This document shows positions 3,850-46,833 of a stretch of DNA of 49,776 nt, in pieces; position 1 is the stretch's first letter, and every line of letters begins with the position of its first letter. The translations under genes were made by a program, and so were the position numbers. The notes under the pieces are model-generated. The model worked only from the letters and a program-made list of their open reading frames with translations. It was not told the origin of the DNA and did not search any database. The stretch is taken from the IMG/VR virus record IMGVR_UViG_3300032288_003855, positions 1-49,776 of that record. One strand, 5' to 3'. This DNA comes from a virus.

Positions 3850-6849
3850 TTAATTTGTGTATCCATAAAGTTTCCATGAACCTGAAAGCGCAACTGAACT
3901 GGCACCTAAACGAAAATCCGAAAGTTGAATTCCGTTATAGGAAGTAGACCCAGCATGAATTACTGTTCCAGTGTAATCGCCAAACGTTGAGGCATTATGT
4001 GATGTGACTGTTGTGTTGTCAGCAATGAACGGCCTATATATTTCCATTGCAACGTGACTATCATTATTTGCTAGCACGCCAGCAACTCCGAAAATAGTAT
4101 TTGCACCATTATAATAATCGTTGGTCCCTGAATAAGTAAATCCCCTAACTGCATAGTAGTAAGATGAGGTCACTGGTGTGCTGCCAGATAATAAAGTAAA
4201 TGTAAATAAATACAAATCGGAACTCGCAACTTGAAGATTAGAAAGTACGAGTCTGTAGTTGTCGTACGTTGAACTAAATACTGATGTCAAGTTTACTGTT
4301 GTGGCACCAGAGAATGTTCCACTAGCAACGTAGACAAGACCAAGGTCTCCAGTTGTTGCAACGGTTCCTGATTTGTTTGGCAGCGTAATGGTTCTATCGG
4401 CAGTAAGCGTTGTTGGGGTTAGCGTAACTTCATACGTACTCGCGCCACCTGCACGACCAGCAAGCGCAACACCATCTTGTGTGGCTGCAGTACGCACAGT
4501 TGTTGTGCCAATAACGTCTAATGCTGTCGCTGGTGAAGACGTATTTACACCAACGCGATTGTTTGTCGCATCAACATATAGTGTATTGGTATCTACTGTC
4601 AGTGCTGCCGCCGTAAGCCGCGTTCCATCGAATGTGAGGTTTGCACTACCTGCCGCAGCGTTAGAACCGTCTTTGTAAACAACTTGGTTGGCAGAACCAG
4701 CAACTGGGCCGGTCGCCCCCTGAACACCCTGCGTTCCTTGCGCGCCAGTTTCGCCCTGAACTCCTTGCGTTCCCTGTGCTCCGGTATCGCCCTGAGCACC
4801 AGTACTACCTTGCGCCCCCGTGGCTCCTTGTGCTCCAGTGGCGCCCTGTGAACCAGTTGCTCCTTGGGGTCCTTGTACTCCTTCGGAACCTTGCGCTCCA
4901 GTTGAGCCTTGGGGTCCTTGGGCACCAACGCTTCCCTGTGAGCCCTGCACGCCTTGTGCGCCAGTATCTCCTTGAGTTCCCTGAGGGCCTTGTGCTCCCG
5001 TTGCACCTTGCGAGCCCTGGGAGCCTTGAGAGCCTTGAGCACCTATATCTCCATGGGAACCTTGAGGTCCTTGCGCTCCAGTCGCTCCTTGACTACCCGT
5101 TGCACCTTGAGTGCCTTGCGAGCCCTGCGCTCCAGTTGCTCCCTGGGCACCAGCATCACCCTGAGTACCTTGAGGTCCTTGTGCCCCCGTTGACCCCTGG
5201 GTACCAGTCGCGCCTTGTGGTCCTTGCGCACCAACGTCGCCCGTGCGAGCGAATGTAATAATGATGCTCTCGTTATTGCTAAACGATGAAGCAGAGCCAG
5301 ACACATACGAGCAAGAAACATCAAAGAATCCAGTTTCCTCAGTGACAGCAGAAATTGTGAATACTGCGAAGTCCGAAGAATCTGCTTTATTTGAAATCCT
5401 GAAGTGACCCTTTATCGTACTAGTAGAGTCATCGATTGTTCTTAGGTAAGACTGAATATCAGTTGAGTTAACGTCAACGTCATCAATCTTGAGTTCTGAT
5501 GTAAGAGTAATATTAGAATTACTGAATTTTAATTTTCCTGCACCTGGGTCGGTATGGGCGGTGTCAGTATCGAATACATACTCAAAGGTAACTCCACCGA
5601 AGTTTCCCTGGACGCCTTGTGAGCCTTGAGAACCCTGTGACCCTTGTGCTCCCTGAGACCCTTGGGCGCCAGTGGCTCCCTGAACGCCTTGCGAACCTTG
5701 GGCACCAGTAGTGCCTTGAGCACCAGTAGAACCTTGTGCTCCTGTTGTTCCTTGTGCGCCAGTCTCACCTTGCGAACCTTGGGGTCCCTGCGCACCGGTA
5801 GCACCTTGAGCACCAGTATTGCCTTGCGGCCCCTGAGCGCCAGTATCTCCTTGAGTTCCCTGAGGTCCCTGTGAACCCTGAGCGCCAGTAGAGCCCTGCG
5901 CTCCCTGTGACCCAGTTGTTCCCTGCGAACCCTGAGCGCCGGTAGAACCTTGAGAGCCAGTGCTACCTTGAGTACCCGTATCTCCCTGCGTCCCCTGTGG
6001 ACCCATATCGCCTTGCGGTCCTTGCGCTCCAGTGTCACCCTGTACTCCCTGGGGCCCGATGTCTCCTTGGGGCCCCTGCGCCCCAGTGTCACCTTGCGGG
6101 CCAATATCTCCCTGTGGACCAATGTCTCCTTGGGGTCCCTGTACGCCAGTCGTACCCTGCGCCCCCGTATCACCCTGCGTCCCTTGAGGTCCTTGCGAGC
6201 CAGTTGCACCTTGAGCACCGACATCTCCCTGAGTGCCTTGGGCACCAGTAGCGCCTTGCGAGCCATTGGTACCAGCGGCGCCTTGTGCTCCCGTTGCTCC
6301 CTGAGCACCAGCATCCCCCGTGGCTCCTTGTGCTCCAGTGGCGCCCTGTGAACCAGTTGCACCCTGGGGGCCAGTAGAGCCTTGCGCTCCAGTATCACCT
6401 TGAGCGCCAGCACTGCCTTGTGAGCCCTGCGCTCCAGCACTGCCTTGTGCTCCAGCATCTCCTTGTGGTCCTTGGCTTCCGACAGCACCCTGCGCTCCAG
6501 TAGCACCCTGAGCCCCTTGAGGGCCCTGCACCCCGACGACACTAGATGGAACGAACTTTGCCCCATCAAATTTCAAAACCTGGTCAGAAGTAGCGCCCGA
6601 AGTGTCAACTTCAATTCCATCAATGAATAAAATTGGAACCTTTAAGGTGTCGTCAGTTTTAAGGACATTCGCTGCATCGCGATATAGATTTACATCGCCA
6701 GCAGCAGAGCCGTCGCCCCAGACGAGTCGTCCGCCACCCTGAACCTGTAATCGTGCATAAGTTTCGCCGTCAAGAAAAATTGTTAGACCATCAGAGCCAG
6801 CAGAAGATAACTGCTTAATCGTGATTGGTGTTATAAATTTTTGAGCCAT
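3850..6849 (-). CDS. collagen-like tail fibre protein
   Basis: A 999-residue fibre. Residues 1-105 form a non-repetitive N-terminal domain whose MAQKF start is shared with the neighbouring fibre at 6895-8571, probably a common attachment module. Two long Gly-X-Y collagen-like blocks, about 106-415 and 537-712, use units such as [10 protein letters not shown] and [10 protein letters not shown]. They are separated by a beta-rich domain at about 416-536. Residues 713-999 carry a repeat-free C-terminal region that starts with a tail-fibre motif ([21 protein letters not shown]) and ends in a probable binding head. Collagen-like triple helices give phage fibres a rigid trimeric shaft. Asp and Thr appear in many Y positions and no hydroxylation is expected. 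A GAGGTC ribosome-binding site precedes the ATG. Confidence 0.9.
4815..4860. repeat. 46-bp exact direct repeat, copy 1 (collagen block 2)
   Basis: These 46 bases are identical to 6315-6360. The copies lie exactly 1500 bases apart, a multiple of three, in the same reading frame of the collagen-like fibre. Flanking bases differ on both sides. Recombination between the copies would remove the inter-block domain and shorten the fibre without breaking the frame. Confidence 0.95.
6315..6360. repeat. 46-bp exact direct repeat, copy 2 (collagen block 1)
   Basis: Second copy of the 46-base repeat at 4815-4860, in the same frame and strand. Elsewhere the collagen repeats diverge at third codon positions, so an exact match of this length suggests recent copying or gene conversion rather than a shared protein motif alone. 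Confidence 0.95.
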
Positions 6850-9907: not shown

Positions 9908-12292
9908 TTATCCCAACTCTCCTGTACCAATGATACTCGAACCGATAGTGAATACAGCGAAGTTGTCCACCGCTACGTTACTCACCGTGAAGCCCATGGG
10001 CACAATGGGCGCAATGGCATTAAGAATGAGTTCAGATGAATTAATTGCATCATAAATACCCAATGTCTCATCCTTCAATGTGCTGATGATAATTTGGAAA
10101 GGGTGAGTGTAATTAATTCTTATATCTTTGGTGCCGATTAGATAACGTTTTACAGTTTCCTCAAGTGATTGCAGTGAGCCTGCCTTATAGCCATAGTATT
10201 TATTCTGTATTTGCCACAATTTGAATTCTTCTGGGTCGTCCCATGCAAATGGCTTTCCTGTTGCGGTAAATGCCAGAGAATCTGTACCCACAACACCATT
10301 GCCAGCAAGGGCAAACATTGTTTCTGCATTTTGGGTCCCCGACCCCCATACATAGGTTCTGAATCCAGATGAGAGCGATGTTGTGGCGGGCAGATTGGAT
10401 ATTCGCACCGGTGGCGCCGCAACTTCGTAAACCCCATTTTGACTTGCTGTAGTCTGATTCTTTACAAGTACATAATCCCCAGTAGCGAGAACTACCCCAT
10501 CAATTGAAAGGGTATCAAGTAGCGCATCTGCAATAGTGATATTCGACGTTGTTGCTAGTTTTGCAGCAACTTGCTTAACCGCAAATGTGATATTGTTTGT
10601 TCCAATCACTGGCCAACTTGCATTAGATGGTGACCACATTGTCATTTTATTAACAGTACCCTGTCTAACAAAAATCAAATCAGGGGTCGTAGTATTAACT
10701 GCACGTTTTGCCGTTGCCGAAGATAGAGTTGCTGCAGCAACTTGTGTAGTTTCTACAACAAATGTGGTTGTACTTGGGACGGAATATACGGCATATTGCC
10801 CGTTGTATCCCGATGGCGTAACTCCAGCAATGACGATTGCATCGCCAACTGAAAAGCCATGCGTCGCACTTGTTGTGAATTGCGCATATCCGAGCGATGG
10901 GGTTACCGGCGCAACAGCAGAAATGCTTGCTGATGACGCAGTCATACCAGACCACCGCACTGGGGTGGTGTCGACAATATATATACCGTTTTCACTAGCA
11001 TCTGATTGATTTTTTACTAGAACTCTGTCGCCAACAGCAAGAGTCACTCCATCGATAACGTCGGTGCCAGGGGTATTCAGTGCAGTTGAAATTGCAATAT
11101 TGGCCGTAGTCGCACAGCGAACCTTGATTGTGGAGCCATAGTCGGCTGCTTTATTGGAGTAAATCGATGCATATGGTTTTGTTTGCCCAACAATTTGCGT
11201 TAACCAGTCATAGTATTGCGGTAATGCAATGTCTGGGTCAACCAAATAACTCTTATTAGCATCATCATCAACTGCAACGAATCCTGGGCGTAGATTGGGG
11301 TCTACGCGGTCAAGTGATGCATATTTGTCTACTACGCCCTCAATACTGCTTGTCAGTGAATGTAACAAGCGGGCTACGGGGTACGGTGGAGTTGAAGCCT
11401 GGTCAATGTCAATTAAAACCTGGGGCAATGAACTCATCCCGAATCTTGTTGAATAAGAAGCGAATATCCTATTCATATCTACTATTTTTGGGATAGTGAG
11501 ATATACCTTGTCCCCGTTATGCCCAGAAATTGTAAAAGACAAATCGCATAGAAGGTCTTCGCCTGAATATTCGCGAAATGGCAGTGATTCTTCAGATGGA
11601 ATTGGGCTTGCTTTTTCTGCATATGCAGTGCTTGGAAAAACGTGACCTGTCACGCTGCTATTAACAGTAAAAAATTCACTAGTAGCATACTGCACTGTGG
11701 TTGGGGTTGTTTCAAAATCAAGCAATGTGCTGTTATGGATGTTTATACTTTCTCCACGAACAAAGGTATTGCCACCAACATACTTAACAAAAGTTCCATT
11801 ACCAAAAACTTCCGATATAAGTGATGTCTTGTTTCTGAATACAGATATTTCTCCACTTTTCGCAGGACCCTGGATGGAGGCTGTAAAATTTGTCAGAGCG
11901 GACCTGGATGTGTTGCGCGAAGAATCAAGCGTTGACCTAACGCCAAGAGTGGAATTGACGGCGATTGCGCTGTTTGATTTAAATAGTGCATGACCCAGTA
12001 ATTTATATGAATTTAAATTAGTGGCAACGACACCAGGTACGGTGATGTTGTTTATTGAAATTGATACCGCACGTAAAGCGCCTGGGTTTATTTCAAAGGT
12101 ATAGAAATATGGATATTCTCGATTTTCTATGCTTATTGAAAAACTCGCAGTATTTGGCTCTACGCCCACAGCATTGGTTACAGTCCAACCAGTCATTGCA
12201 TTAGTGAATTCGGTATATGCACGAGTAACCCCGCTATCAGAAATAGCGTACAAACTTTGGTCGCGCGATAAAAAACTCTCTACGTACGGCAT
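9908..12292 (-). CDS. large baseplate/tail fibre protein with repeated beta modules
   Basis: A 794-residue virion protein following the J-like wedge, with the start overlapping its stop (TAATG at 12292). The first about 370 residues are unique, beta-rich and Ser/Thr-rich. Between about 390 and 660 lie two copies of a module ([19 protein letters not shown] and LSIDGVVLATGDYVLVKNQ, each followed by a NGIY/NGVY motif), also present once in the fibre at 6895-8571. Between the copies is a different module with a VTPSGYNG core, also seen in the connector and terminator genes. The last about 120 residues resemble the C-terminal domain of phage I-like wedge proteins. Possible roles are a wedge protein fused to a fibre, or a baseplate-fibre adaptor. 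Confidence 0.8.
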   Translation of the reverse strand: MPYVESFLSRDQSLYAISDSGVTRAYTEFTNAMTGWTVTNAVGVEPNTASFSISIENREYPYFYTFEINPGALRAVSISINNITVPGVVATNLNSYKLLGHALFKSNSAIAVNSTLGVRSTLDSSRNTSRSALTNFTASIQGPAKSGEISVFRNKTSLISEVFGNGTFVKYVGGNTFVRGESINIHNSTLLDFETTPTTVQYATSEFFTVNSSVTGHVFPSTAYAEKASPIPSEESLPFREYSGEDLLCDLSFTISGHNGDKVYLTIPKIVDMNRIFASYSTRFGMSSLPQVLIDIDQASTPPYPVARLLHSLTSSIEGVVDKYASLDRVDPNLRPGFVAVDDDANKSYLVDPDIALPQYYDWLTQIVGQTKPYASIYSNKAADYGSTIKVRCATTANIAISTALNTPGTDVIDGVTLAVGDRVLVKNQSDASENGIYIVDTTPVRWSGMTASSASISAVAPVTPSLGYAQFTTSATHGFSVGDAIVIAGVTPSGYNGQYAVYSVPSTTTFVVETTQVAAATLSSATAKRAVNTTTPDLIFVRQGTVNKMTMWSPSNASWPVIGTNNITFAVKQVAAKLATTSNITIADALLDTLSIDGVVLATGDYVLVKNQTTASQNGVYEVAAPPVRISNLPATTSLSSGFRTYVWGSGTQNAETMFALAGNGVVGTDSLAFTATGKPFAWDDPEEFKLWQIQNKYYGYKAGSLQSLEETVKRYLIGTKDIRINYTHPFQIIISTLKDETLGIYDAINSSELILNAIAPIVPMGFTVSNVAVDNFAVFTIGSSIIGTGELG

Positions 12293-13824
12293 TACGACGG
12301 CTCTGTAGAAAGTGTTACGTTAATAGCAGTTGTTGGGACGTCAGGCAAAACGCCACGGTTAAGGAAATTCAACGTAGTGCTAGCCGAAGTTTCGTAGAAA
12401 TTCTCCCTCAAGGAACTCGCAGCCACGTTGGTGGTGTAGTCAGTCTCTATCGTGAATGTTGTTGTATTAATTTTAGATTTAACTGCTATTGAATTATCGG
12501 TATATGCAGTGCCCGAAACGTCAGTAAGCCTTATTCGTTGTCCAACTACTAGTTTTGCTACGTCTTCTACCGAGGCGGTGATTTTTACGTCTCCTGTAGT
12601 GTTCTCCGTTACTCCACTTCCGGTCACTACCGTATAGGACAGTGCTGCAGGCGGGGTGAATTGCACTGAGTTCACATACCTCAATCCAGGAACCGTAGAA
12701 AGCAATCTTGAAATAAGTGTTGATTCTCTGATTCTTGGCGACGCAACGCTCAATTCTTCGTATGGGAAATTTTGTGGAGACAAAAAGGAAGAAATTGATA
12801 CCTTAATCAATTCTTCGGCATAAGCAAAATCGTAGTTGGAATCAATTGCGGCGTCTACAACAACGCCACCACTTGTCGCAAGTTGAGCAGTTTTGAAATT
12901 GTATGTGCCCACTTCTAGGCCAGCCATTACTCTTTCTGTGGCAAATAGTTGTACTTCACTTAATTGTCCACTTGATAATTCGCCAGTATATCCGTATAGA
13001 AAAATTGAAACAAAACCTCTATAGGACGGGTAGGTTGCGTATGTTATGCTCCTCGTTGCATCTGGCGTGAATGTCAAAACTCCTCTATCTGGAGGATTCG
13101 TAGCACTGGGAATCCCGGCATTCATCAGGTCGTAAACCTTGCAGCGTGACACGTATGGGAAGTTTACTAAAATCGCTGCTTCTAATTGTTTTGCGGTGAC
13201 AAATGTAGTTGAGATTGATTCAAGAAAAGTTTTTGCCGAACTGAGATATTCTTGGTCAGTTAGTGGATTGGTTCCATTTTGGAATGTTGTAAAAGTAACA
13301 GTATTGATGTTTGTATCAATTGATAGTGGCATAAGCGTGCTTTCGCCAACTGTCGGTACTGGCATTTCCCCAAACTGACCGCTTACTAAGTTGATGACTC
13401 CAGTGGGGGTGCCTGCATCAACAATAACAGTGTCTTCGGAAGTAACGAATAAATAATCCGTCTCATACCCCGCAGTCGTATTGGTATATCTGTACCTAAA
13501 TTCTGTGCCAGAAGGTATGATTTCTCCAGTTGTTCCATAAAGAACCACTGTCGCAGTAGCCGTTGCTCTTGTGCCAATGGGACGCTCGTAGCCCATTAGA
13601 GATACGATGCCTTGCATGATTCCATTGGGGACTCTATTGATTGAGTTTGTAGCAGTAGCAGCCAGATAGGCACAACTTTGGAATAGGGCATCTTCCAATG
13701 TTCCGCGCCTTAGGTTGAAGTCAGGCATGACAGCACGAGCAACTTCAATCATTTCTCGATATAGAGTACCGGCGTCTTTGTCGTGCACTGTCAGGTTAAT
13801 ATATTCTGAAAAATCTGCTGGCAT
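12292..13824 (-). CDS. baseplate wedge protein, J-like
   Basis: A 510-residue protein with the hallmarks of baseplate J-like proteins. The N-terminus contains ARAVMPDFNLRRGTLEDALFQ, followed by a family-typical GYERPIGTRATATATV beta segment and a middle LTDQEYLSSAKTFLES helix. J-like proteins form the baseplate wedge of contractile tails. The start chosen is the ATG at 13824, preceded by GAGG at eight bases; a longer frame starting at 13884 adds a hydrophobic stretch that overlaps the gp25-like gene and is unlikely. Near the C-terminus a small inserted beta module (VGQRIRLTDVSGTAYTD) resembles modules in neighbouring structural proteins. Confidence 0.88.
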   Translation of the reverse strand: MPADFSEYINLTVHDKDAGTLYREMIEVARAVMPDFNLRRGTLEDALFQSCAYLAATATNSINRVPNGIMQGIVSLMGYERPIGTRATATATVVLYGTTGEIIPSGTEFRYRYTNTTAGYETDYLFVTSEDTVIVDAGTPTGVINLVSGQFGEMPVPTVGESTLMPLSIDTNINTVTFTTFQNGTNPLTDQEYLSSAKTFLESISTTFVTAKQLEAAILVNFPYVSRCKVYDLMNAGIPSATNPPDRGVLTFTPDATRSITYATYPSYRGFVSIFLYGYTGELSSGQLSEVQLFATERVMAGLEVGTYNFKTAQLATSGGVVVDAAIDSNYDFAYAEELIKVSISSFLSPQNFPYEELSVASPRIRESTLISRLLSTVPGLRYVNSVQFTPPAALSYTVVTGSGVTENTTGDVKITASVEDVAKLVVGQRIRLTDVSGTAYTDNSIAVKSKINTTTFTIETDYTTNVAASSLRENFYETSASTTLNFLNRGVLPDVPTTAINVTLSTEPS

Positions 13825-13825
13825 T

Positions 13826-14116
13826 TCATCGCCTCGTAAAAGTAAAAGAAATAGAATGATTGTCTTCGGATTCGGAAATATCAATACCTAAAATTCTGAT
13901 TTCTGGGACATAGCGTGATGCTAATATCAAAAACTTGCCCCTATCGCTGACGTTGAAAGTTGGGTCGTATACGCCGAATTCGGGGAAAATTGGCTGAACA
14001 CCGGGCTCGGTACGGGCAGATATGGACAAAATTTGCTTATAGTAATCGTCTGTACCGTCAACTACGTGCTTAAGGCCATTAATGTCATATTCAATTGGTA
14101 TTTTGATTGTGTCCAT
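13826..14116 (-). CDS. gp25-like baseplate wedge protein
   Basis: A 96-residue protein with the gp25/gpW fold signature: an IL-arm (YKQILSISARTEPGVQPIFPEFG) and a C-terminal EPEIRILGIDI-like strand (here YVPEIRILGIDISESED). gp25 proteins clamp wedge complexes to the sheath and initiate sheath assembly in contractile tails. The start was set at 14116 because a strong GGAGGA lies five bases before that ATG. The stop is one base from the next gene. Gene order gp25 then J is the classical one for contractile-tailed phages. Confidence 0.88.
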   Translation of the reverse strand: MDTIKIPIEYDINGLKHVVDGTDDYYKQILSISARTEPGVQPIFPEFGVYDPTFNVSDRGKFLILASRYVPEIRILGIDISESEDNHSISFTFTRR

Positions 14117-14182
14117 TACTTCCTCCAAGGCGTAATGCAATAATACAGCATCAGGAAGCCCTCCAATTCCGCAAAGGGACCC

Positions 14183-14357: not shown

Positions 14358-15536
14358 CTAGTGCTCATGCGCTGGCATTAGGGCATGTAATTCTGTCGCA
14401 ATGTTCAGATGGTGGACATTTTGTGAAAAAGAAAATAAATTCCACGTACCGACATCTCGACCGTACCGCAAACTTGGGTGACGGCCATGCAGTGCGCCAT
14501 CAACGATGGCCCTAAAATCAGGATTACCCTTGAGCGTTAACCAAAGTTTTTCCTCAGCCAGATATGTGGCATTATTCCAGAATTCAGTATCAAAACCTGG
14601 ATTTTTGAGATAATGCATGGAAATCATCGCCTCTATCTCGTTGATGTCTTCTGAGTAAATTGCATTACATGCGTCGGGCGTTGCCCCTTTTATTCCTGAC
14701 CACATATCGTAGGCTAGAGAATTGACACCCAGGGCCGTCGTTGTGGATGTGGCTTCCATGGGGTCTACGAAAAAGGATTTATTGCCATTAAAAGCAACAC
14801 GCTCAGTAAAATTAATTTTCTTTTTATAATTAGCAAAAGAAATAGATGGAGTGGCATACGGCTCTAGATTATGTTTCTCAACAACTTCGCGCAAACCATT
14901 TTCAATATCAGAAATATTAGTTATGTTAGAATTGTGCACATAGCCAAAACTGCATCTTGCTTGGAGCGGGATAACGAATATCCATCCATGTGGCATGGCT
15001 ATTGCTTTTGTATAATCAAAACGCGGAGAATCCCACGAACAGTGAGCCACGAGACACGCATTGGTAATTGTATATTCCATTAGTTCATATGAATCATCAA
15101 GTTCTGGACGTCCTGAACAGTCCATAATGAAATCTGAATCAATATTTTCTAGAGACGTATTGCCCTCTATTGTTCGTACCGAGGAACAGTCGGATAGGTG
15201 CTCAAAAAGAAACTTCTGAAGTGCTTCGGCGGAGAAATGTACACCCGTAAGACCGAGTGCAAAATTATGCATATAGTCGCCGGAGCCAGACCAGCCAATT
15301 TTATTAATTCCTCGCTTCGTCGTTCCGCCAACGGCCAGGAGGTCCTCGTAGGAAAAAACTATACTGTCATGTAGGCGATTTGGGAGCATCGCTGTCGTCC
15401 CCTCGCCAACGCCAGAAGGTGGGGTTTCTGGGTCGTAGTGCCATTCAATTTCCCAATCCGTCCAGTGTAGGAAATCTGCAACAGATATACAGCCGACGGT
15501 ACCGCGACCAATAATAGCCAACTTTTTGGTAGTCAT
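14358..15536 (-). CDS. flavin-dependent (tryptophan-type) halogenase-like enzyme
   Basis: A 392-residue protein with the motif set of flavin-dependent halogenases. An FAD-binding GRGTVG lies at residues 10-15 and a GVGEGT loop at 42-47. Lys74 sits in a TTKRG context, matching the catalytic lysine. A WIFVIP stretch at 185-190 is a variant of the WxWxIP motif. FVDPMEATS at 256-264 aligns with the family's FxEPLESTG, keeping the glutamate but not the following serine. Such enzymes use FADH2, oxygen and halide to halogenate aromatic substrates and need a flavin reductase partner, none of which is visible here. The ATG at 15536, not an upstream TTG, is preferred; it follows the previous stop by five bases. 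The protein is shorter than bacterial homologues (about 500 residues). Substrate unknown. Confidence 0.82.
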   Translation of the reverse strand: MTTKKLAIIGRGTVGCISVADFLHWTDWEIEWHYDPETPPSGVGEGTTAMLPNRLHDSIVFSYEDLLAVGGTTKRGINKIGWSGSGDYMHNFALGLTGVHFSAEALQKFLFEHLSDCSSVRTIEGNTSLENIDSDFIMDCSGRPELDDSYELMEYTITNACLVAHCSWDSPRFDYTKAIAMPHGWIFVIPLQARCSFGYVHNSNITNISDIENGLREVVEKHNLEPYATPSISFANYKKKINFTERVAFNGNKSFFVDPMEATSTTTALGVNSLAYDMWSGIKGATPDACNAIYSEDINEIEAMISMHYLKNPGFDTEFWNNATYLAEEKLWLTLKGNPDFRAIVDGALHGRHPSLRYGRDVGTWNLFSFSQNVHHLNIATELHALMPAHEH

Positions 15537-15541
15537 TATTG

Positions 15542-15853
15542 CTAACCAGCACTCCAAGGGTTAATGAGTTCGGTGCCCAGAGAAGGTACGAATGCTACAT
15601 TTTCCAAATCTGGCAGCGAGGGCAAATCCCGCAACCACAATCTATAAGTGCGCCACTGTTCTTTTTGTTCCAGTGTTAATGGACTGTCGGGCATTTGTGT
15701 CCAGTCGCTAGCAATTAAGCGGGCCTGGCGCCACCATCTTAGAAACGACGCGCGACGTTCTTCCGTCCACGCAAATTCATTGTCAGCATCATTTTGCATA
15801 TCTTCACTAGACGTGTACCATGATGCGGGTGGGTCAAAGTCACTGAATGCCAT
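15542..15853 (-). CDS. tail assembly chaperone of the APC type
   Basis: A 103-residue acidic, Trp-rich protein. The C-terminal half matches the phage tail assembly chaperone (APC) signature, with SDWTQMPDSPLTLEQKEQW followed by YRLWLRDLP. Members sit next to fibre or collar genes and are thought to help fold or attach the fibre. Here it lies between the spike-collar fusion and the halogenase-like gene, and its stop is only five bases from the halogenase start, so the two are likely translated together. Its N-terminal half (WYTSSEDMQNDADNEF) is not recognised. Confidence 0.82.
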   Translation of the reverse strand: MAFSDFDPPASWYTSSEDMQNDADNEFAWTEERRASFLRWWRQARLIASDWTQMPDSPLTLEQKEQWRTYRLWLRDLPSLPDLENVAFVPSLGTELINPWSAG

Positions 15854-15865
15854 AAAATCAACTTA

Positions 15866-18061
15866 TCACGTTTTGATGATATACATCAGGACGAGATACG
15901 GCTGCATATTATTGTGTGCTGAAGACGAGCCGGTTGAGCCCGACGTTCCGGTAAATGCATCAAGGTCCACAGAGTGTGTATGTGATGATTCATTGCCAGT
16001 ATTGACCGTAGCGTCCGTGACGGTGCCACTCATTGTGTGGCTATGGCCGGAGCCAGAACTGTGAACGCGAGCATACTGCGCGGCATCAAATCTCGTTGTA
16101 TTGGCGGGGTTGAAGTCCCAGTTACTACCACCACCACCGATACGTTTTGTGTAGTAGTTGCTTGTTTGTGCGTTGGTGTCATTGTTGACTTCATTATGAA
16201 AGTGCTCTCCACCGCTGGAAGCACTGATGCTATGTCCGTGTCCGTGGTTGGCACTATGGACGTGTGAAGACCCGGCGCCGCTAGTCTTTGCCGCATGGTC
16301 GTGGTTGATTGTGTGCGTATGTGCCCGCAATTCCGCTTCTGTCAGGGTATGTGTTTCTAAGCCAGAACCATTGCCACGAGCATTGTTTGATGTCACTCGT
16401 CCGGCAGCGGTCGTCACCCCGCCAGCGGACATTGTATCGGCGGCAATAATAGTTCTTCCGCGCAAATCCGGCACACGAACATTCCCGGCGGTTTCCCCAC
16501 CAGTGTTATATGTTGTGCTCAGGATGGAGCCTAGCGCTGACGAAGACAGTACTTGTTGCCCATTGCAGAAAAGCCATCCCGTCGGCTGCGAAGAGCCAGC
16601 ATAGGGAATAATACTACCCGTTGGAACGAGAGATAGATTTTCCCATACAGAACCAGAATATGCCAAAACCTGATTGGCTGATGGTGACACAATCGACACA
16701 TCACTCGCACTATCAAGAGGTATGGAGCCATTAACCCAATTCGACCCATCATATTTTAGGACGTCATTATTGGCGGGAGTTGTGAGGCTCACATCGGTCA
16801 GTGAAGAGAGTGCTGATGCCCCAATGCCAATGTTGATGGCCTGATTTGCCCTAATGTCGGCGATGCTGGCAAGACGTGACTTTACGGCATTCGTGTACCC
16901 AGTATTGGTTTCATAAATCAACTTATAGAGCGGCCGAATCTCAACAATCGGCAATCCCGTCAGGTCTAAGTCCGCATAGGAAACATCCTCAGCCTGACCA
17001 ATATTGTCGCTAACTGTTTGTCCTAGGATTCCTATGACTGGCTCATTGAGGTTGTTTGTAGCGACAATCCAGGTAACTCCGAATTTGCCACTTGTCATGT
17101 CAGGGGTTGACCAAGTGCCACCAGATGACAAGTTATATGTTGCCCGAGCACTTCCGTATTTAACGGGGTATGCAGTTGCTGTATCTAGGCGCCACGAGCC
17201 ACTAGAGCCAAAACGGTAAAACATTGGAATATACGCAGGTGATTGAAGTCTTTGTTCCCATGTGTTGGCGGTTGGCGTTGCGCTATGGGTGATATTGACT
17301 TCTAGGTCTTCGTCAAAGAATGTTCCATTCTCAATACTTATCTGCATATCGGCGTTAGAACTGCCAGTACCAGCGAGGGTGTAGCCACTTGCCCCTAGGC
17401 CTTCTGCTAACGAGGCACCGCGAGTTCTATGAAGATACTCGTGTGTTGCCCAGTCAAGAGTTACGCCGTGTCGTTCGTCAGCAAAAAACTCTGCTTCAGC
17501 AGTTGCGGAGTTGTAATAGATGTATGCTGTCGGAGCATCCTGGTCCCACGTAAAAAACGATGTCTTAGAGGATAAAACCCCAGTAGAACTGTAGTAGATA
17601 TAATAAAGACCAGTCGTGTTAGGAAGGGTGATGCTTTCTGCAGCAGTCTTAGTATAACGCTTTCCAACGCACCAGACATTGAATGAGTCTCCAACGGGGG
17701 CTATGGTAAAAACACGAGTGCTGTTATTGAAAGAGATAACACTTTCTGTTTTATCTTCATGTCCAATTGGCTCAGTGGTTGCTGCTTCTACCCCAGGACG
17801 GTCGGTAAGGCGACCAATGACGACCATCTCGCTTTTCTGGTTATCCAGATACGCAACCAGAACCTCATCATTGACGACGAATTCTTCGTCATGCTGTTTC
17901 CCGACAATACGGCATGGTCCGACGTTGATGCCCAGCGTTCTGACGAATACGCGAACGGTCCCACCTTCGTAGACGAGCGTTATTTTACCCTGGAATATGC
18001 CACCAGGTTCATAACCGGTGCTTGCGCTGCCATTGCGGCTTGAGCGTGGATTCAGAGCCAT
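15866..18061 (-). CDS. baseplate spike protein fused to tail-collar fibre
   Basis: A 731-residue protein. Residues about 15-90 look like the OB-fold domain of gp5/gpV-type spikes (IFQGKITLVYEGGTVRVFV, VGKQHDEEFVVNDEVLVAY). A fibre-like middle region follows. A phage tail collar domain starts near residue 485 with GSIIPYAGSSQPTGWLFCNG and VRVPDLRGRTI. The C-terminal region contains many HxH pairs (THTINHDH, HSANHGHGH, HTHSVD), typical of metal-binding collar proteins such as short fibres, and ends QPYLVLMYIIKT. It likely sits on the central axis of the baseplate and extends as a fibre. It overlaps the hub gene stop (TAATG). Confidence 0.85.
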   Translation of the reverse strand: MALNPRSSRNGSASTGYEPGGIFQGKITLVYEGGTVRVFVRTLGINVGPCRIVGKQHDEEFVVNDEVLVAYLDNQKSEMVVIGRLTDRPGVEAATTEPIGHEDKTESVISFNNSTRVFTIAPVGDSFNVWCVGKRYTKTAAESITLPNTTGLYYIYYSSTGVLSSKTSFFTWDQDAPTAYIYYNSATAEAEFFADERHGVTLDWATHEYLHRTRGASLAEGLGASGYTLAGTGSSNADMQISIENGTFFDEDLEVNITHSATPTANTWEQRLQSPAYIPMFYRFGSSGSWRLDTATAYPVKYGSARATYNLSSGGTWSTPDMTSGKFGVTWIVATNNLNEPVIGILGQTVSDNIGQAEDVSYADLDLTGLPIVEIRPLYKLIYETNTGYTNAVKSRLASIADIRANQAINIGIGASALSSLTDVSLTTPANNDVLKYDGSNWVNGSIPLDSASDVSIVSPSANQVLAYSGSVWENLSLVPTGSIIPYAGSSQPTGWLFCNGQQVLSSSALGSILSTTYNTGGETAGNVRVPDLRGRTIIAADTMSAGGVTTAAGRVTSNNARGNGSGLETHTLTEAELRAHTHTINHDHAAKTSGAGSSHVHSANHGHGHSISASSGGEHFHNEVNNDTNAQTSNYYTKRIGGGGSNWDFNPANTTRFDAAQYARVHSSGSGHSHTMSGTVTDATVNTGNESSHTHSVDLDAFTGTSGSTGSSSAHNNMQPYLVLMYIIKT

Positions 18062-26328: not shown

Positions 26329-27861
26329 TCAGACCACTGACGTGGTGAGGTTTGACTTGACGATGTCGACTTGGATTGAGTCGCCAATACTTGATACTCG
26401 CAATCCGACTCTGGCTGTAACTGTGCCATTAACGAGTTGCGATAGGGGGTTGATTGAATTATTGCACTTAACAGTGTATCCCATGTCAATACGACGACCA
26501 TTTACGTCAAATGCTTCGTAGAGTGCGCCCAGGGCTCGCAGCGGCTCCATAACCGCAACAAGGTGAGCCTCAATTGCCGCAAACATTCCACCGCGCCCAT
26601 CAATTGGGCTGAAGAGAACATCTTCCAGTGCACGGTTAGCCTGGACTACAACGTAGTTCACGACATCTTGTGAACTGATGTAGCGATAGTTGCCAGTGTC
26701 AGGCGAACATGAGCGTGCTCCATAGATGCGTACTCGGTTATTGATGATTCTGATGGCATTGACAGAATCGGCGTCAAGAATGTCGCCATTGGTCTTGTCG
26801 ACCGATGCATAGACACCGTTGACGAACCGGCCATCCGAGATGATTCCAGCACCAGGCTGGTGAGGTCCGACCTGGTTATGAGCGCGTGCGCGAGCACCAG
26901 CAACATAGCCGCTCGGCGGGATGAAGCGATTCACTCCAACAGTTCCAGTCGGAACCGAAACCCATGGGTAGTAAACCGCAATATGCTCTGAGTTTTCTAG
27001 CGACTGTGCTTCTTGCGCTACTCCACGGATAGTGGCAATGCTGTCGGTTGCTGCGCCATGAAGGGCAGCGATGCGACTGTAGGTGTTGCAGTGTGCGATT
27101 AATGCCGTAGTAACAGCATCAAATGCACCAGAGGTAACGACGCTTGGTACTTCTGGAATGGCAACAAGGCCAGTTCCAAGTGAGTCAAGGAAGAATCCCA
27201 AAGCCGTCGTATATTGTGCATCAGCAATTGCAGTGGCTCCGATAGTGCCGCCAGTGAAGTCTGTTTCCGTTGCATTAACGACAGGCATACTGAGGGGGGT
27301 TGTAGATACGCCAGCGTTTGTTTCAACTGCTTCAACCAGGAGCGACGCTACTGGGTGTGTATTGATTTTGCCCACCATTTGAGCCGTATTGAGGCAGGAG
27401 CCGGTAGTCATAATGACGCGGCCATTCAAATATAGAGTCAGGGCACGCGCATCAGCGACTGAACCAACTTCTACGGTGTATGAAAGGCCACCGGCGGCTC
27501 CGTTTGCCCAGGTACCAGGGCCGTCTGCGGTCAAAGTGATGGCAGTCGTTGGGGTTGCAAGGTCATTAGGAACCGTGGCAGACGCTGAGGCTGAGGCCGT
27601 ACCTGATGATGTTTTTTCAACTCTAGCGACATAACACTGAGTGCCGCCTTCTTCAAAGAATGCTTCCACAGTTGAGTGCAGATAATATCCACTCACGAAA
27701 TTGCCAAACTTGAGTTCAAAATCTTCAAGGCTTGTCACCAATAGCGCCTTGTCGATGGGTCCACGCTCCGCCTTGCCGACGAAAAAGGCCTGAGAGGACT
27801 CCCGAACCGTCGTGTTGGTGGGGCCAGTTCTTACTGCTGTTGAAATCTGAATACCAGGCAT
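26329..27861 (-). CDS. contractile tail sheath protein
   Basis: A 510-residue sheath protein. The N-terminal segment GPTNTTVRESSQAFFVGKA and the following RGPIDKALLVTSLEDFELKFG plus EAFFEEGGTQCYVARV are hallmark sheath sequences. The C-terminal domain includes GRGGMFAAIEAHLVAVMEPL and a conserved end region. A sheath defines a contractile tail (myovirus morphology) and explains the gp25, J and hub genes nearby. The protein is of normal length for the family. It starts the tube-sheath pair followed by the chaperone and tape measure. Confidence 0.92.
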   Translation of the reverse strand: MPGIQISTAVRTGPTNTTVRESSQAFFVGKAERGPIDKALLVTSLEDFELKFGNFVSGYYLHSTVEAFFEEGGTQCYVARVEKTSSGTASASASATVPNDLATPTTAITLTADGPGTWANGAAGGLSYTVEVGSVADARALTLYLNGRVIMTTGSCLNTAQMVGKINTHPVASLLVEAVETNAGVSTTPLSMPVVNATETDFTGGTIGATAIADAQYTTALGFFLDSLGTGLVAIPEVPSVVTSGAFDAVTTALIAHCNTYSRIAALHGAATDSIATIRGVAQEAQSLENSEHIAVYYPWVSVPTGTVGVNRFIPPSGYVAGARARAHNQVGPHQPGAGIISDGRFVNGVYASVDKTNGDILDADSVNAIRIINNRVRIYGARSCSPDTGNYRYISSQDVVNYVVVQANRALEDVLFSPIDGRGGMFAAIEAHLVAVMEPLRALGALYEAFDVNGRRIDMGYTVKCNNSINPLSQLVNGTVTARVGLRVSSIGDSIQVDIVKSNLTTSVV

Positions 27862-31317: not shown

Positions 31318-32454
31318 TTACAATTCCTCTTCTAGTTGTTGAAGTGCCGCTTGGCGGACCGTGTGTGCGCGGGTCTTTGGCCCCACGGGGGTGACCGTAT
31401 GTCCCCATAGGGCATGCATAAACAATGAGCGAATTAGTGATTCCAGTGGATAGGAATATGGGTCCTTGGCGTGTTTTTGCCTAAATTCTGCAGAATAGGC
31501 TTTTGCTCGCTGAGCCGTATCCTGCCCCCAGCAGAATTGTTTAATAAATGGCATGACGCCATCCCAGCCTTTTGCAGCAGTCATTGCAATCAACTTCTCA
31601 ACATCAAACTCCGACCACCACCGTCTCTGGGCATCAATCATTGGAAAGACATCGTAAAGACGGTCATAAAAGTCTGGCTCTGTTGCGATTACGTCACCAA
31701 TGCGTCTCGCTGCAACGCTATGGAGCGGATGCCCAACACGATTATTGGAGCCAGTTAAGGCTGCTAGGTCGTAATACTCGCAATATGGGGCATTGTGCTC
31801 TTCGGAAAGAAACTTAAAAACATCATCAATCTGCCAATCGTAAATAATTTTTGCAAACTTTACTGGCAACCCCTTCTTGGATTTGAATGGGGTAACGATG
31901 TAGTTCTCATTGAGTTTCTGAACGCACGACCTGTACCGGACCATGGACTCTGCTGCTCGTACACCAGTAATAAAAGCAATATTGCCTCGCTTCCCAGCCG
32001 TCGTGTAGTAATCAATGTGTTCGGGGATTGGCGTATAATGGTCCAGACCAAAGTGATATGCGGTTATCGCGCCGTCAGGAATGGGTCTAAAAAGACGATT
32101 GCTTTCAATTCTGGCACCAGACCAAATCATTTCATCAAGTCGGCGCCCGAGGGACCACACCTCGAGGCCCTGGGGCATACAAAACCACTCCATGTCAATC
32201 CAGTCAAGCCCCCTGATGTACTCGACGTAGCGTTCTACCGCTGGGCTGACGAATTCTTCATCACGAAAAATAACTTTAACTGGGCCTAGTCCACGCTCTT
32301 CATGGATTTCTTTGGCTAAGTAAAGGACTGCAGAGGAGTCTTTTCCTCCAGAGAATTGCACACACACCGAATCAAAGGTGTCATATACGTGCCTGATTCT
32401 TTGCCTCGCAGCCTCCACGCAAGAGATATCCAAGAACATGCGCTGACGGGTCAT
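31318..32454 (-). CDS. PAPS reductase family protein (IbrA-like)
   Basis: A 378-residue protein with the adenine nucleotide alpha-hydrolase/PAPS reductase signature, VCVQFSGGKDSSAVLYLA (SGGKDS at 35-40). After it come a FRDEEFVSPAVERYVEYIR region and a long C-terminal half with DVFKFLSEEHNAPYCEYYDLA. Members of this family in phages and genomic islands (DUF3440, IbrA) are not biosynthetic PAPS reductases and lack the pathway's other enzymes. Here no sulfate-assimilation genes accompany it. Its start overlaps the stop of the preceding gene by four bases. Likely acts with the ParB-like partner downstream; substrate unknown. Confidence 0.85.
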   Translation of the reverse strand: MTRQRMFLDISCVEAARQRIRHVYDTFDSVCVQFSGGKDSSAVLYLAKEIHEERGLGPVKVIFRDEEFVSPAVERYVEYIRGLDWIDMEWFCMPQGLEVWSLGRRLDEMIWSGARIESNRLFRPIPDGAITAYHFGLDHYTPIPEHIDYYTTAGKRGNIAFITGVRAAESMVRYRSCVQKLNENYIVTPFKSKKGLPVKFAKIIYDWQIDDVFKFLSEEHNAPYCEYYDLAALTGSNNRVGHPLHSVAARRIGDVIATEPDFYDRLYDVFPMIDAQRRWWSEFDVEKLIAMTAAKGWDGVMPFIKQFCWGQDTAQRAKAYSAEFRQKHAKDPYSYPLESLIRSLFMHALWGHTVTPVGPKTRAHTVRQAALQQLEEEL

Positions 32455-33225: not shown

Positions 33226-33301
33226 TGGCTGGCGAGGCAGGATTCGAACCTGCGGCAGACGGTTTAGGAAACCGCTATTCTATCCACTGAATTACTCGCC
33301 A
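33226..33301 (-). tRNA. tRNA-Arg (anticodon CCT)
   Basis: A full cloverleaf on the minus strand. The acceptor stem pairs TGGCGAG with CTCGCCA, the anticodon loop TTCCTAA reads CCT (codon AGG, Arg), and the T arm is GCAGG-TTCGAAT-CCTGC. The 3' end has discriminator G followed by an encoded CCA (33226-33228), so no CCA addition is needed. It probably supplements the AGG codon, which is rare in many hosts. Confidence 0.93.
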
Positions 33302-34130: not shown

Positions 34131-34631
34131 TTATTCCTTTACCAGATTCGCATAAACGTACAAGATGTGGTGTTGTTTGTGCCATGGACTTGGGAAATCC
34201 TCCCACACATTGCCCGAGAATCTGGCTTTGATTCCAGGGACAAAACGAGCCTGCTCCTCGCGCATGTAGTACCAGAATGAGTTTGGGTTCCAGAACGAAC
34301 AGTGCGTTGGGTCCTGAAATGCCCCACGACCACCCGTTGATGGGGTCATAGACAACAACTGACCACCAGGTGCCAATACTCTATGAATCTCGTTCATCAA
34401 CCCAACGGTACAACGACAAGCGACGTGTAGGCATGTTGAATCCCGGCAGTGAGGGATATGTTCCAAGAAGTCTTGTGCCCTAATAATTCCCACTGAGTTG
34501 TCGTCAAATGGTAGGCCATCACGAATATCGCAAACTACGTCTGCTGTTTCTATGATGTCAACTGAAAGGAACCCCTCGGGGGTATTTGAACCCCCGCCGA
34601 GGTCATACTTGGGTAAGTTGTCAATTGTCAT
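34131..34631 (-). CDS. class I SAM-dependent methyltransferase-like protein
   Basis: A 166-residue protein with the layout of a small class I methyltransferase: a glycine loop YDLGGGSNTPEGFLSVDI near the start, an acidic position later (VDI), a GIIRAQDFLEHIPH segment in motif-II position and LMNEIHRVLAPGGQLLSMTPS, the usual post-II motif. An insertion between EHIPH and LMNEIH carries several cysteines (CRDSTCLHVACRC), suggesting a metal-binding loop. Target unknown (DNA, protein or small molecule). It overlaps the RNR stop by four bases (ATGA), so it is likely expressed with it. Confidence 0.78.
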   Translation of the reverse strand: MTIDNLPKYDLGGGSNTPEGFLSVDIIETADVVCDIRDGLPFDDNSVGIIRAQDFLEHIPHCRDSTCLHVACRCTVGLMNEIHRVLAPGGQLLSMTPSTGGRGAFQDPTHCSFWNPNSFWYYMREEQARFVPGIKARFSGNVWEDFPSPWHKQHHILYVYANLVKE

Positions 34632-36553
34632 TTTATTGGGCAGGCTCCAGTGGCACAGTCATCCAACTCCATCAAACCATCGAATGCAGGACGATGCAAG
34701 GGGATTGAGAAGTCAATCTTGCTCAATGACTTCTCATAAGCCTCTTTAGTGCATTCCTCGTATGGAGGTAGTGGGAAGTTGTGGTCGGTGTGAAGAAGGA
34801 ATGAAACAGACTTCACTGAATCATCATAATTCTTTGAGAGCCATTCTTTGATTTCCGCAAGTTCTTCCTTGCGATAATACACAGTAACCGAAACGGCATT
34901 GTCTGCCCATTCCGTCTGCATCTTCTTCACCCACTCAAGTTGTGACACGGCAGTCATACTGCGTGCCAATACAGAGCCCTCAGGGGACTCACAGGGGAAC
35001 TCTACGACGAAACGGGTGTGGTCTTCGCGGCCATCAATTCCAACGTCATAGCAAACCTTATATCCACGCTTACGACATGCTTCCACCAATGGGTCAGAAG
35101 AACCAAAACGAACACGACGAATATAGTACGGAGCAAATGCTGGGTGAATACCAGGAGTAACGCCGGGCAGGAGTGAAAGAGTTCCTGAAGGCTGAACAGT
35201 TGTCAAGCGAACAGAAACAGGGAGACCATTTTCTTTTGAATAACTGGCATCCAATGCTTCCAAGTATGTGTACGCATCTGACAGCCAAGTAATCTTTTCT
35301 TCATCACACTGAAGAATTCCAGTAATTGACTGACCAAGACGTGCATTCTTCTGAACAATCTTGGTCGTCTTCTCGTATGGGTAATTCATGCGAGTGATTT
35401 GCTTCTGCGTCTTATAGAGCAAGTACGAGATGTCTTTGAACTGCTTCAAAGAGGTCACGTTTGGAAGGAAAATCGTTGATAAGTTGCATGATTCTCCATC
35501 GCCTAGTGCAATTTCGGCACACGGGTTGTAGCCCTCAATGGTGGGGTCTGCCTTCGGATGCCCAACGCGTCCAAACTTACGAGCAAGTTTGCGGTTGACT
35601 AAACCGTAGGGCTCCCCAGTGCCGTCGTAGCCCTTCCAGAGTTCCGTAGCAATCTCTTCGTAGCCATCTGCGTAGATGCTGTTATTGCTGTTTGCCCGCC
35701 ATGCGGGAACGTTTCCTGAACCCCAGTTCTTTGCACGGAGGAATAAGACATCGTCAGGGTCACCAATAGCGATTTGTGCCGAACGGCGCGACGAACCCGA
35801 AACGACGATGCGACCAATGATGTTACAAATATCCAATACGTCAATAGAGCGCAACTTCTTGCCAACACGATTTTCAAGAACCTTACAAATATCAACAACA
35901 CCATCAATGAGTGCGCCTGGACCTGAGGCTGTGCCGCCAAACTTCTTCAATGGGGCACCATACTCACGAACGAGAATCGTTGAATAAGTAAATGACTTGC
36001 CTGTTTCAAAGTATGACTTCAGAACTGCGTGAAGAAGGCGACGCCAGCCCTGACGACTATCAGGAACGATGATGTCTGCATCGTTGGTTCGCTCGTGAGT
36101 AATAGCAACTCCACCCTTGACTTTGGGTAGGTCGTGAATCTTTGAGCGTTCAACCGAAAAACCAACTCCACCACCAAGCATGAGGTAATCAAAAAGAAGT
36201 TCAAAGTCTTCAATCTTCTCAATGTTGGTGAAATAACAGTTATTTAGGCTCGTTCCAGAGAATTCTTTAGTCAGCGGCGTGCCAAGTTGCCACAACGAAC
36301 GACCCGAGAATGAGCAACGAAGATTAAACATATGGTCAAAGAGGCGTTCCGCTTCTTCTTGCGTATAGGGGACGCCAATTTCAATAGCGCCGTTGATTAC
36401 TCGCTGGAGCGTGTCGGTCCATGTCTCGGTGTCGCCATTTTCTTTCTTACGACTATACGTGCGCAGGAAAACAATCTCTCCCATGCCATTAAAACCCCAT
36501 GGTGGTGTTTGTGAGGAGTAAGAGCGTACGAAATCATCAGAAATGCCAACCAT
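34628..36553 (-). CDS. nrdJ: class II (B12-dependent) ribonucleoside-triphosphate reductase
   Basis: A 641-residue monomeric class II ribonucleotide reductase. The PWGFNGMGEIVFLRTYSR start is characteristic of Lactobacillus-type RTPR. Catalytic residues seen are Cys106 in LNNCYFT, NPCAE at 343-347 (Cys345 as radical site), Cys356 eleven residues on in GESCNLS, and the C-terminal pair Cys633-Cys638 in CATGACPIK. The enzyme makes deoxyribonucleotides using adenosylcobalamin and works with or without oxygen. It is about 100 residues shorter than the bacterial enzyme, and allosteric regions may be reduced. AAAGGA precedes the ATG. It supplies dNTPs for phage DNA and sits near the dCMP deaminase. 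Confidence 0.9.
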   Translation of the reverse strand: MVGISDDFVRSYSSQTPPWGFNGMGEIVFLRTYSRKKENGDTETWTDTLQRVINGAIEIGVPYTQEEAERLFDHMFNLRCSFSGRSLWQLGTPLTKEFSGTSLNNCYFTNIEKIEDFELLFDYLMLGGGVGFSVERSKIHDLPKVKGGVAITHERTNDADIIVPDSRQGWRRLLHAVLKSYFETGKSFTYSTILVREYGAPLKKFGGTASGPGALIDGVVDICKVLENRVGKKLRSIDVLDICNIIGRIVVSGSSRRSAQIAIGDPDDVLFLRAKNWGSGNVPAWRANSNNSIYADGYEEIATELWKGYDGTGEPYGLVNRKLARKFGRVGHPKADPTIEGYNPCAEIALGDGESCNLSTIFLPNVTSLKQFKDISYLLYKTQKQITRMNYPYEKTTKIVQKNARLGQSITGILQCDEEKITWLSDAYTYLEALDASYSKENGLPVSVRLTTVQPSGTLSLLPGVTPGIHPAFAPYYIRRVRFGSSDPLVEACRKRGYKVCYDVGIDGREDHTRFVVEFPCESPEGSVLARSMTAVSQLEWVKKMQTEWADNAVSVTVYYRKEELAEIKEWLSKNYDDSVKSVSFLLHTDHNFPLPPYEECTKEAYEKSLSKIDFSIPLHRPAFDGLMELDDCATGACPIK

Positions 36554-45502: not shown

Positions 45503-46807
45503 TCAGACGATGATACCCACACGCCTACGTTGAGGCAACCCCAAACCAGCAAGATGTGTGAACGCGCCAACGGCAGAGTCCACTTGGTCATCGTGGTCGC
45601 ATGCCTCGGGGAAGGTTGATAATTCGTCTAGCCAGTCTGTTAGCCACGGGCCACGAACGCACCTCACGTTGCCATTGGCTACGGCTGCGGCGAATGGTCG
45701 CGCCCTCGTGACTTTATCGCCCGTGGACCTGATTCCCAAAAAATCAAATCCTGGAAGGACGTACCGCGCGTACTGGTCAACCAACCCCTTACCAGATGAG
45801 CCTGGCTCTTGTTCCATGCGGATTGCAACCGTTCCCCCATCTTCGTAGGCGGTTTGGGAGATAAATTCTTCTACCTTCTCGCCTCGGACCCTGGCTCGGC
45901 GGACATCGAGTATGTAGGCTATTCCGCCATCAAATAACATCAATGTCCCAACAGTCCAGTCAGGATTTGGATTCGTATGAGATGGCTCCGTGGCAGCAAG
46001 GTCCCAGAATCTAACGGCACGCGCAGACGTAGAAATTCTAGGGATATCGGTTTGGTCAATAATTACGATGGATTCTCGTTGGAACATTGAACCAAGGGTT
46101 GTCGCCCACCAGTCGCCCTCCTCAAGACGGCGACGTTCAAGTGGGTCTAGGGCTTGCAGGGCAGTGCGATAAGAGTCAGCATCAATTCCGGGGTTATCTG
46201 ACAATTTGGATGGAACAAAAATACGACCCTCAGTCTGCCCTTCTACGATAAATCGTTGGCGGACCCAATTGGGCGCAGGGTTGCAGGCGGAGCGCATTCT
46301 TAGGGGAACCTGAGCCAGCGGACCCGAAGCAGGGCGACGCAGACGGGAGAACATGTATCTGTAGTCCGATTCTCTAATTTCGGTGACTTCGTCCATGCCA
46401 ATAAATTGGAATTCGGCACCCTTGTAGCGCAGGAAGTCCTGCTGGTTGTTGAGGTAGCCGAAAGAAAGTCGTGCTCCGGAAGGGAATATCGCCGTGTAGT
46501 TGTTCGCATTCCAGCGAACATCGTCAACGGTTGACATCCAACTAATAAACCGGTCCATGATGGCTCCGGGAAGTGCCAAGTCGGCATAGGTACGACGGAA
46601 GATAATGGCAGAATAGCCAGGAACGTCGACGTATTGCAACGCTGACATTAACAACGCGGAAGATTTCCCACCACCAGCCGCTCCTCCGAATAGTGCCTCT
46701 AATGAATATGTTCTGAGGAAAACCTTTTGAGTAAGAGAAGGTTCTTCTGGGCAGAACGATGGTTGCTTTGGCTCCAAAAATTGGAGAACTTTATTCCAGT
46801 CCGTCAT
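45503..46807 (-). CDS. terminase large subunit
   Basis: A 434-residue packaging ATPase-nuclease. Walker A is GGAAGGGKSS (41-50) and Walker B FIGMDE (135-140). Nuclease carboxylates include Asp269 in RFWDLA and DHDDQVDS near residue 404. The ATG at 46807 is preferred over TTG 46819, with GGAG just upstream. It drives DNA into the prohead through the portal; the portal gene is transcribed in the opposite direction just to the right. No small terminase is seen in the window. Confidence 0.93.
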   Translation of the reverse strand: MTDWNKVLQFLEPKQPSFCPEEPSLTQKVFLRTYSLEALFGGAAGGGKSSALLMSALQYVDVPGYSAIIFRRTYADLALPGAIMDRFISWMSTVDDVRWNANNYTAIFPSGARLSFGYLNNQQDFLRYKGAEFQFIGMDEVTEIRESDYRYMFSRLRRPASGPLAQVPLRMRSACNPAPNWVRQRFIVEGQTEGRIFVPSKLSDNPGIDADSYRTALQALDPLERRRLEEGDWWATTLGSMFQRESIVIIDQTDIPRISTSARAVRFWDLAATEPSHTNPNPDWTVGTLMLFDGGIAYILDVRRARVRGEKVEEFISQTAYEDGGTVAIRMEQEPGSSGKGLVDQYARYVLPGFDFLGIRSTGDKVTRARPFAAAVANGNVRCVRGPWLTDWLDELSTFPEACDHDDQVDSAVGAFTHLAGLGLPQRRRVGIIV

Positions 46808-46833
46808 CATCCACTCCAAACGGCTCGCAATGT

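Follow-up and report, generated by a model that had tools for sequence, protein, structure and literature searches.

A compact flavin-dependent halogenase gene behind tail-fibre and chaperone genes of a phage, with likeness to peptidyl-tryptophan brominases

Flavin-dependent halogenases share a mechanism in which FADH2 and O2 yield a flavin hydroperoxide, halide is converted to hypohalous acid, and a lysine/glutamate pair passes the halogen to an aromatic ring (PMC8407142). One of them, SrpI, is a peptidyl-tryptophan brominase, in which the leader of the peptide binds loop 104-110 (PMC10858898). Halogenase genes of cyanophages have long been known, with their function unknown (PMC2984593, PMC10452541). 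For two decades phage genes have been annotated as 'tryptophan halogenases', and no substrate of theirs is known. An earlier note on the DNA studied here, made from its sequence alone, called such enzymes rare in phages. This is ruled out by the 20 of 153 cyanophages that carry the gene (PMC10452541), by 48 phage records with relatives found by tblastn (all at most 60% identical, the best, Cyanophage S-RIM4, being 40% identical over 98%) and by the 357 loci of a marine subgroup that one IMG/VR scan returned; another scan returned 220 relatives from the subgroup nearest to the phage protein. Such halogenase genes are common among aquatic phages and, as the cyanophage examples are of long standing, carriage by a phage is not in itself new.

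The window analysed here is the whole of IMG/VR record IMGVR_UViG_3300032288_003855 (positions 1 to 49,776; 49,776 nt). The halogenase open reading frame starts with an ATG at 15536, spans exactly 14358-15536 on the minus strand, as do its neighbours named below, and encodes 392 aa free of stops. Its product matches the PF04820 Trp_halogenase profile with 96.2 bits against a curated cut-off of 21 (E 2.7e-27) and phrog_2928 'tryptophan halogenase' with an E-value of 8e-59, and a sequence search against the PDB retrieved halogenases with E-values down to 4.9e-13. The AlphaFold (AF2) model, built from a 77-sequence input, reached a pLDDT of 94.6 and a pTM of 0.92. All of its 50 best fold matches in the PDB are flavin-dependent halogenases (TMq 0.68-0.80), and the structure comparison proposed in the earlier note thus brought up no other FAD-dependent fold. 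Both sequence and model place the product in the class of flavin-dependent halogenases. Comparison with two homologues, 97% and 71% identical, gave dN/dS ratios of 0.08-0.13 and 0.085, respectively, indicating that the gene is under purifying selection.

The residues on which the first reading of this gene was based are well conserved. Of 88 aligned relatives, 87 retain the glycines of the FAD-binding GxGxxG motif, GRGTVG (residues 10-15, 15492-15509), and the remaining one is gapped. Loss of the lysine and the glutamate had been named as grounds for abandoning the assignment, and both are kept: Lys74 (15315-15317) aligns with the catalytic lysine of RebH and is present in 88/88 phage and 17/17 bacterial relatives, and Glu261 (14754-14756), within FVDPMEATS (14745-14771), is Glu in 86/88 relatives and Gln in two. 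The two Gln-bearing proteins, at loci L010:3998-5101 and L012:4998-6197, are distant relatives, one of them from a Campylobacter phage. The histidine and phenylalanine of the HxF motif, here HNF (residues 90-92, 15261-15269), are conserved among compact forms, and the sequence FVDPME agrees with the FX[DE]PX[EFL] motif. At residue 45, we also observed a change from GVGE to GVGQ across most of the marine subgroup (52/88 sequences of the phage compact family).

Two departures from the classical motifs had been thought capable of altering substrate or selectivity, namely the change of the second Trp of WxWxIP to Phe (GWIFVIP, 14967-14987) and an Ala directly behind the catalytic Glu. Both are family-wide: WxFxIP replaces WxWxIP throughout the compact group (Phe in 85/88 phage relatives), Ala occurs in 39/88 phage relatives, and all 17 bacterial compact proteins aligned have the two together. 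They therefore give no sign of special selectivity and do not mark out this protein. Variants of WxWxIP are known among PF04820 halogenases, and the motif is missing from some true halogenases.

What is new here is the type of the enzyme. It aligns with long halogenases over its full length except for one segment directly behind HxF, where it has a 7-residue loop (residues 93-99, 15240-15260), as seen in the alignment counts and in the profile alignment. Of 34 phage compact forms, 33 have 7 residues in this loop and the last has 27; bacterial compact forms have 8-9 and long phage forms 53-58. The C-terminal part, too, is mostly shorter in compact than in long forms. By its alignments the protein is thus a compact enzyme that dispenses with the 50-60 residue insert found behind HxF in RebH/VirX1-type halogenases. 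The earlier note had taken VirX1, the iodinating cyanophage enzyme, as its point of comparison, but VirX1 is a longer form, of the 480-530 aa kind, and matches with an E-value of 2.7e-8; length (392 aa) and score rule out a VirX1-like iodinase as the nearest kind.

A scan of prokaryote genomes yielded 18 loci whose products are about 30% identical to the phage protein; since the scan was built on patterns of the compact family, it favours compact relatives. In 17 of these 18 loci the halogenase, once its start is trimmed, is 414-448 aa long. Many of these genes belong to RiPP clusters, and among the products of neighbouring genes are NHLP and Nif11 leader peptides, LanM, YcaO/TOMM maturases, a PoyD epimerase and NHLP exporters; NCBIfam confirmed RiPP-type neighbours at seven loci, the two exporters falling just under the equivalog cut-off with full-length matches. 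The phage family profile scored 212-238 bits for the bacterial compact proteins and 96-144 bits for long phage halogenases, and blastp with the phage protein gave 105-127 bits against 48-57 bits. Judged by published residue positions, one bacterial protein (L214) has the Lys84 and the P105-Q106-Q107-V108-S109 stretch of SrpI (PMC10858898), and another, from Moorena (L219), has the Lys73 of MppI (PMC11791876). The leader-binding loop 104-110 of SrpI coincides with the insert site of long halogenases. A careful tree recovered three clans, phage compact (support 100/96), bacterial compact (97/90) and long (100/100). As this tree is unrooted, with one clan per group, it does not by itself make the phage and bacterial compact forms sisters, and we do not claim such a relation; their apparent nearness rests on scores and on the shared compact build. 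With this in mind, bromination of peptide-bound tryptophan appears to be the activity of the nearest bacterial relatives.

The genomic setting, a run of tail and baseplate genes, agrees with the earlier note, which had placed a halogenase inside a phage baseplate gene cluster, between an APC-type tail chaperone and gp25. The tail-fibre assembly chaperone (APC) gene (15542-15853; PF16778 6.6e-14, phrog_4912 tail fiber assembly) ends 5 nt before the halogenase ATG and itself lies behind a gene for a tail fibre or spike of 731 aa with a collar domain and a His-rich C-terminal part (15866-18061; PF07484 2e-14, together with phrog tail matches). On the other side follow an ORF of 52 aa that reads as coiled-coil-like and has a homologue translated in locus L016 (14183-14341), a gp25-like baseplate protein (13826-14140; phrog_5026 2e-7) and, adjoining gp25, a baseplate J-like protein (12292-13884) whose PF04865 match (E 0.0032) lies under the curated cut-off. 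The fibre-APC-halogenase order is kept in L014-L016, whose halogenases are 71% identical. We also noticed that the APC has eight Trp in 103 aa, all of them matched in its L016 homologue, and that both proteins end in NPWSA, with a Trp near the C-terminus; by sequence, these shared Trp and this shared end may be taken as a lead.

Is this arrangement recurrent? We grouped halogenases into 118 clusters at 90% identity and counted neighbours at positions within six genes. An APC lies immediately before the halogenase in 10/117 clusters and at 0/1000 of the other positions, with a Fisher p of about 1e-10 in which clusters are counted regardless of shared ancestry. In the 10 APC-linked clusters the frames abut or overlap and the downstream genes differ, and wherever the contig extends that far (9/9) a large fibre-like ORF precedes the APC; several of these ORFs have tail-fibre PHROG matches, while the one in L188 has no PHROG match. 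The order is kept among halogenases that are 38-71% identical. An AU test does not reject a single origin of the ten linked genes (p 0.916); they may thus share one origin, so that the ten cases are not independent, and the order looks like a single cassette that has been retained through deep divergence. Repeated independent linkage, for which a quick tree had given two changes, was dropped, as grouping the ten gave the better likelihood. About 90% of the halogenase relatives are not beside an APC, and the marine subgroup is often beside other genes, for example head genes in Sf-CH8. Inspection of the linked fibres and chaperones by eye identified no conserved target residue in the fibres, and the fibre ends differ. 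Fibres near compact halogenases (L034:6837-8568 and L043:3817-4710; also L188, L199, L204, L205 and L210) often have a Gly-rich end with terminal aromatic residues, and PF21722 was matched in both of the fibres tested.

We tentatively propose, with somewhat less than even confidence, that this is a compact phage halogenase of the peptidyl type which draws on host FADH2 and acts on a protein at an aromatic residue, the tail fibre or chaperone encoded with it being the most likely target. GRGTVG would bind reduced FAD delivered by a host reductase; the earlier note had reported no flavin reductase in the window, and Flavin_Reduct (PF01613) indeed has no match anywhere in the 49.8-kb record; for other reductase families the search extends to the larger ORFs, which were scanned with Pfam. 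The FADH2 would therefore have to be supplied by the host. Reduced FAD, O2 and halide, with bromide as the best guess, would then give hypohalous acid, and Lys74 with Glu261 would hand the halogen to an aromatic ring. Because the 50-60 residue segment behind HxF is missing, a polypeptide should have access to the active site, which would be open in the manner of SrpI and MppI. The substrate would most likely be a Trp (or a Tyr or His) of the tail fibre or of the APC, whose genes directly precede the halogenase and are probably expressed with it. We infer from all this a halogenating activity, its halide, a protein substrate, co-expression and an effect on the virion, for example on adsorption or fibre stability. 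We hold it moderately likely that the enzyme acts in the way of a peptidyl halogenase; that it modifies the virion is a testable lead. The strictest form of the proposal, in which a dedicated peptidyl halogenase of the fibre-APC-halogenase cassette halogenates the fibre or chaperone at an aromatic residue as a post-translational modification of the virion, is possible though rather doubtful. The earlier suggestion that virion proteins may be the substrate draws indirect support from the likeness to peptidyl-tryptophan brominases and from the recurrent gene order.

Tail-fibre operon ends are usual landing sites for cargo genes. The halogenase could be a moron or auxiliary metabolic gene lodged behind the fibre and chaperone genes. 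Its substrate would then be a small molecule, for example free Trp, indole or a metabolite of the host or of algae, and its role might lie in signalling, in harming rivals or in host metabolism; such roles have been proposed for the halogenases of cyanophages. We consider this less likely, though it has points in its favour: the surroundings of most relatives are varied and not those of tail genes, the long viral form VirX1 iodinates numerous small aromatic compounds in vitro (PMC8407142), and Gordonia phage GMA6, an isolated relative, has no such gene at the matching place between tail genes and gp25, so that the cassette looks acquired. However, the enzyme is of the compact form and scores closest to peptidyl brominases, its start lies so near to the APC stop that a separate promoter would not fit between them, and the APC order persists across widely diverged halogenases although the genes downstream change.

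Less probable still is that the substrate is some peptide or protein besides the fibre, be it a RiPP-like peptide of the phage or a protein or antimicrobial peptide of the host, modified as such or in counter-defence. The compact relatives of bacteria either function in RiPP clusters or are encoded there, and a 2OG-Fe(II) oxygenase gene is found at most three genes from the halogenase in 30/118 clusters, as in multi-step tailoring of peptides or proteins. Yet no RiPP maturation enzyme is found among the window ORFs scanned with Pfam, and the sole small neighbouring ORF, that of 52 aa, has no Trp. One to several such oxygenase genes adjoin the compact halogenase at L024:4998-7814, L034, L004:4110-5867 and L008:7351-9101; a profile search found no 2OG oxygenase (PF13640) in the 49.8-kb record. 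Elsewhere, compact halogenases occur as tandem pairs, end to start, with the catalytic residues kept in both copies (L027:5007-7348 and L032:3844-6167). Finally, a halogenase fold that now serves a hydroxylating flavin monooxygenase or has lost its activity is improbable: the WxWxIP motif, to which a block on monooxygenation has been ascribed, reads WxFxIP in this protein, the sequence departs from the proposed Fx.Px.Sx.G motif at its Ser and Gly, and two distant relatives have Gln for Glu, but the same Phe occurs in all 17 bacterial compact relatives, a group that matches the proven brominases SrpI and MppI, and the protein keeps Lys74, Glu261 and FX[DE]PX[EFL] under purifying selection.

The tail sheath (26329-27861) and the terminase (45503-46819) are closest to those of Gordonia and other actinobacterial phages (37-44% identity), which by sequence hints at an actinobacterial host. 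The record further holds a PAPS-reductase-domain protein among structural genes (31318-32454), a B12-dependent ribonucleotide reductase (34628-36553), a 999-aa protein with six collagen-like stretches (3850-6849) and a tRNA-Arg (CCT) gene (33226-33301).

A large compact subset of phage halogenases that resembles peptidyl-tryptophan brominases, some of its members locked behind a fibre and its chaperone, raises a testable question: are residues of tail fibres halogenated? We found no statement in the open literature searched that links compact phage halogenases, peptidyl-tryptophan brominases and the tail fibre or chaperone. If the proposal is true, phages would have halogenation as a further means of altering the parts that bind receptors, and the enzyme toolbox would gain hundreds of new halogenases for peptides or proteins.

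Among known systems, RebH, PrnA and PyrH share the fold (TMq 0.7-0.8) and the catalytic residues with the phage enzyme, but act on free tryptophan and have the long insert behind HxF, a longer C-terminal part and the second Trp of WxWxIP. VirX1 from cyanophage Syn10 is likewise viral, belongs to PF04820 and has the catalytic Lys and Glu; in contrast to the phage enzyme, it has 531 aa with the long insert, and the two are weakly similar. The copies in phrog_2928 or cyanophage T4-GC 212 (S-RIM4, S-SSM5, S-ShM2) are of the same family, with the Lys, WxFxIP and a compact length of 360-400 aa, but reside in T4-like cyanophages beside varied genes, whereas the present copy lies behind an APC in a myophage of roughly 50 kb. 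SrpI and MppI, whose published residue positions L214 and L219 match, have in common with it the compact build, WxFxIP, the Lys and Glu and the best non-viral scores; they are about 27-31% identical to it and are encoded in RiPP clusters alongside leader peptides, whereas the phage enzyme is encoded in a tail operon and does not conserve the leader-binding loop PQQVS of SrpI. We would thus class the phage enzyme not as a distant VirX1 but as a compact variant that resembles peptidyl brominases and has a recurrent link to tail fibres.
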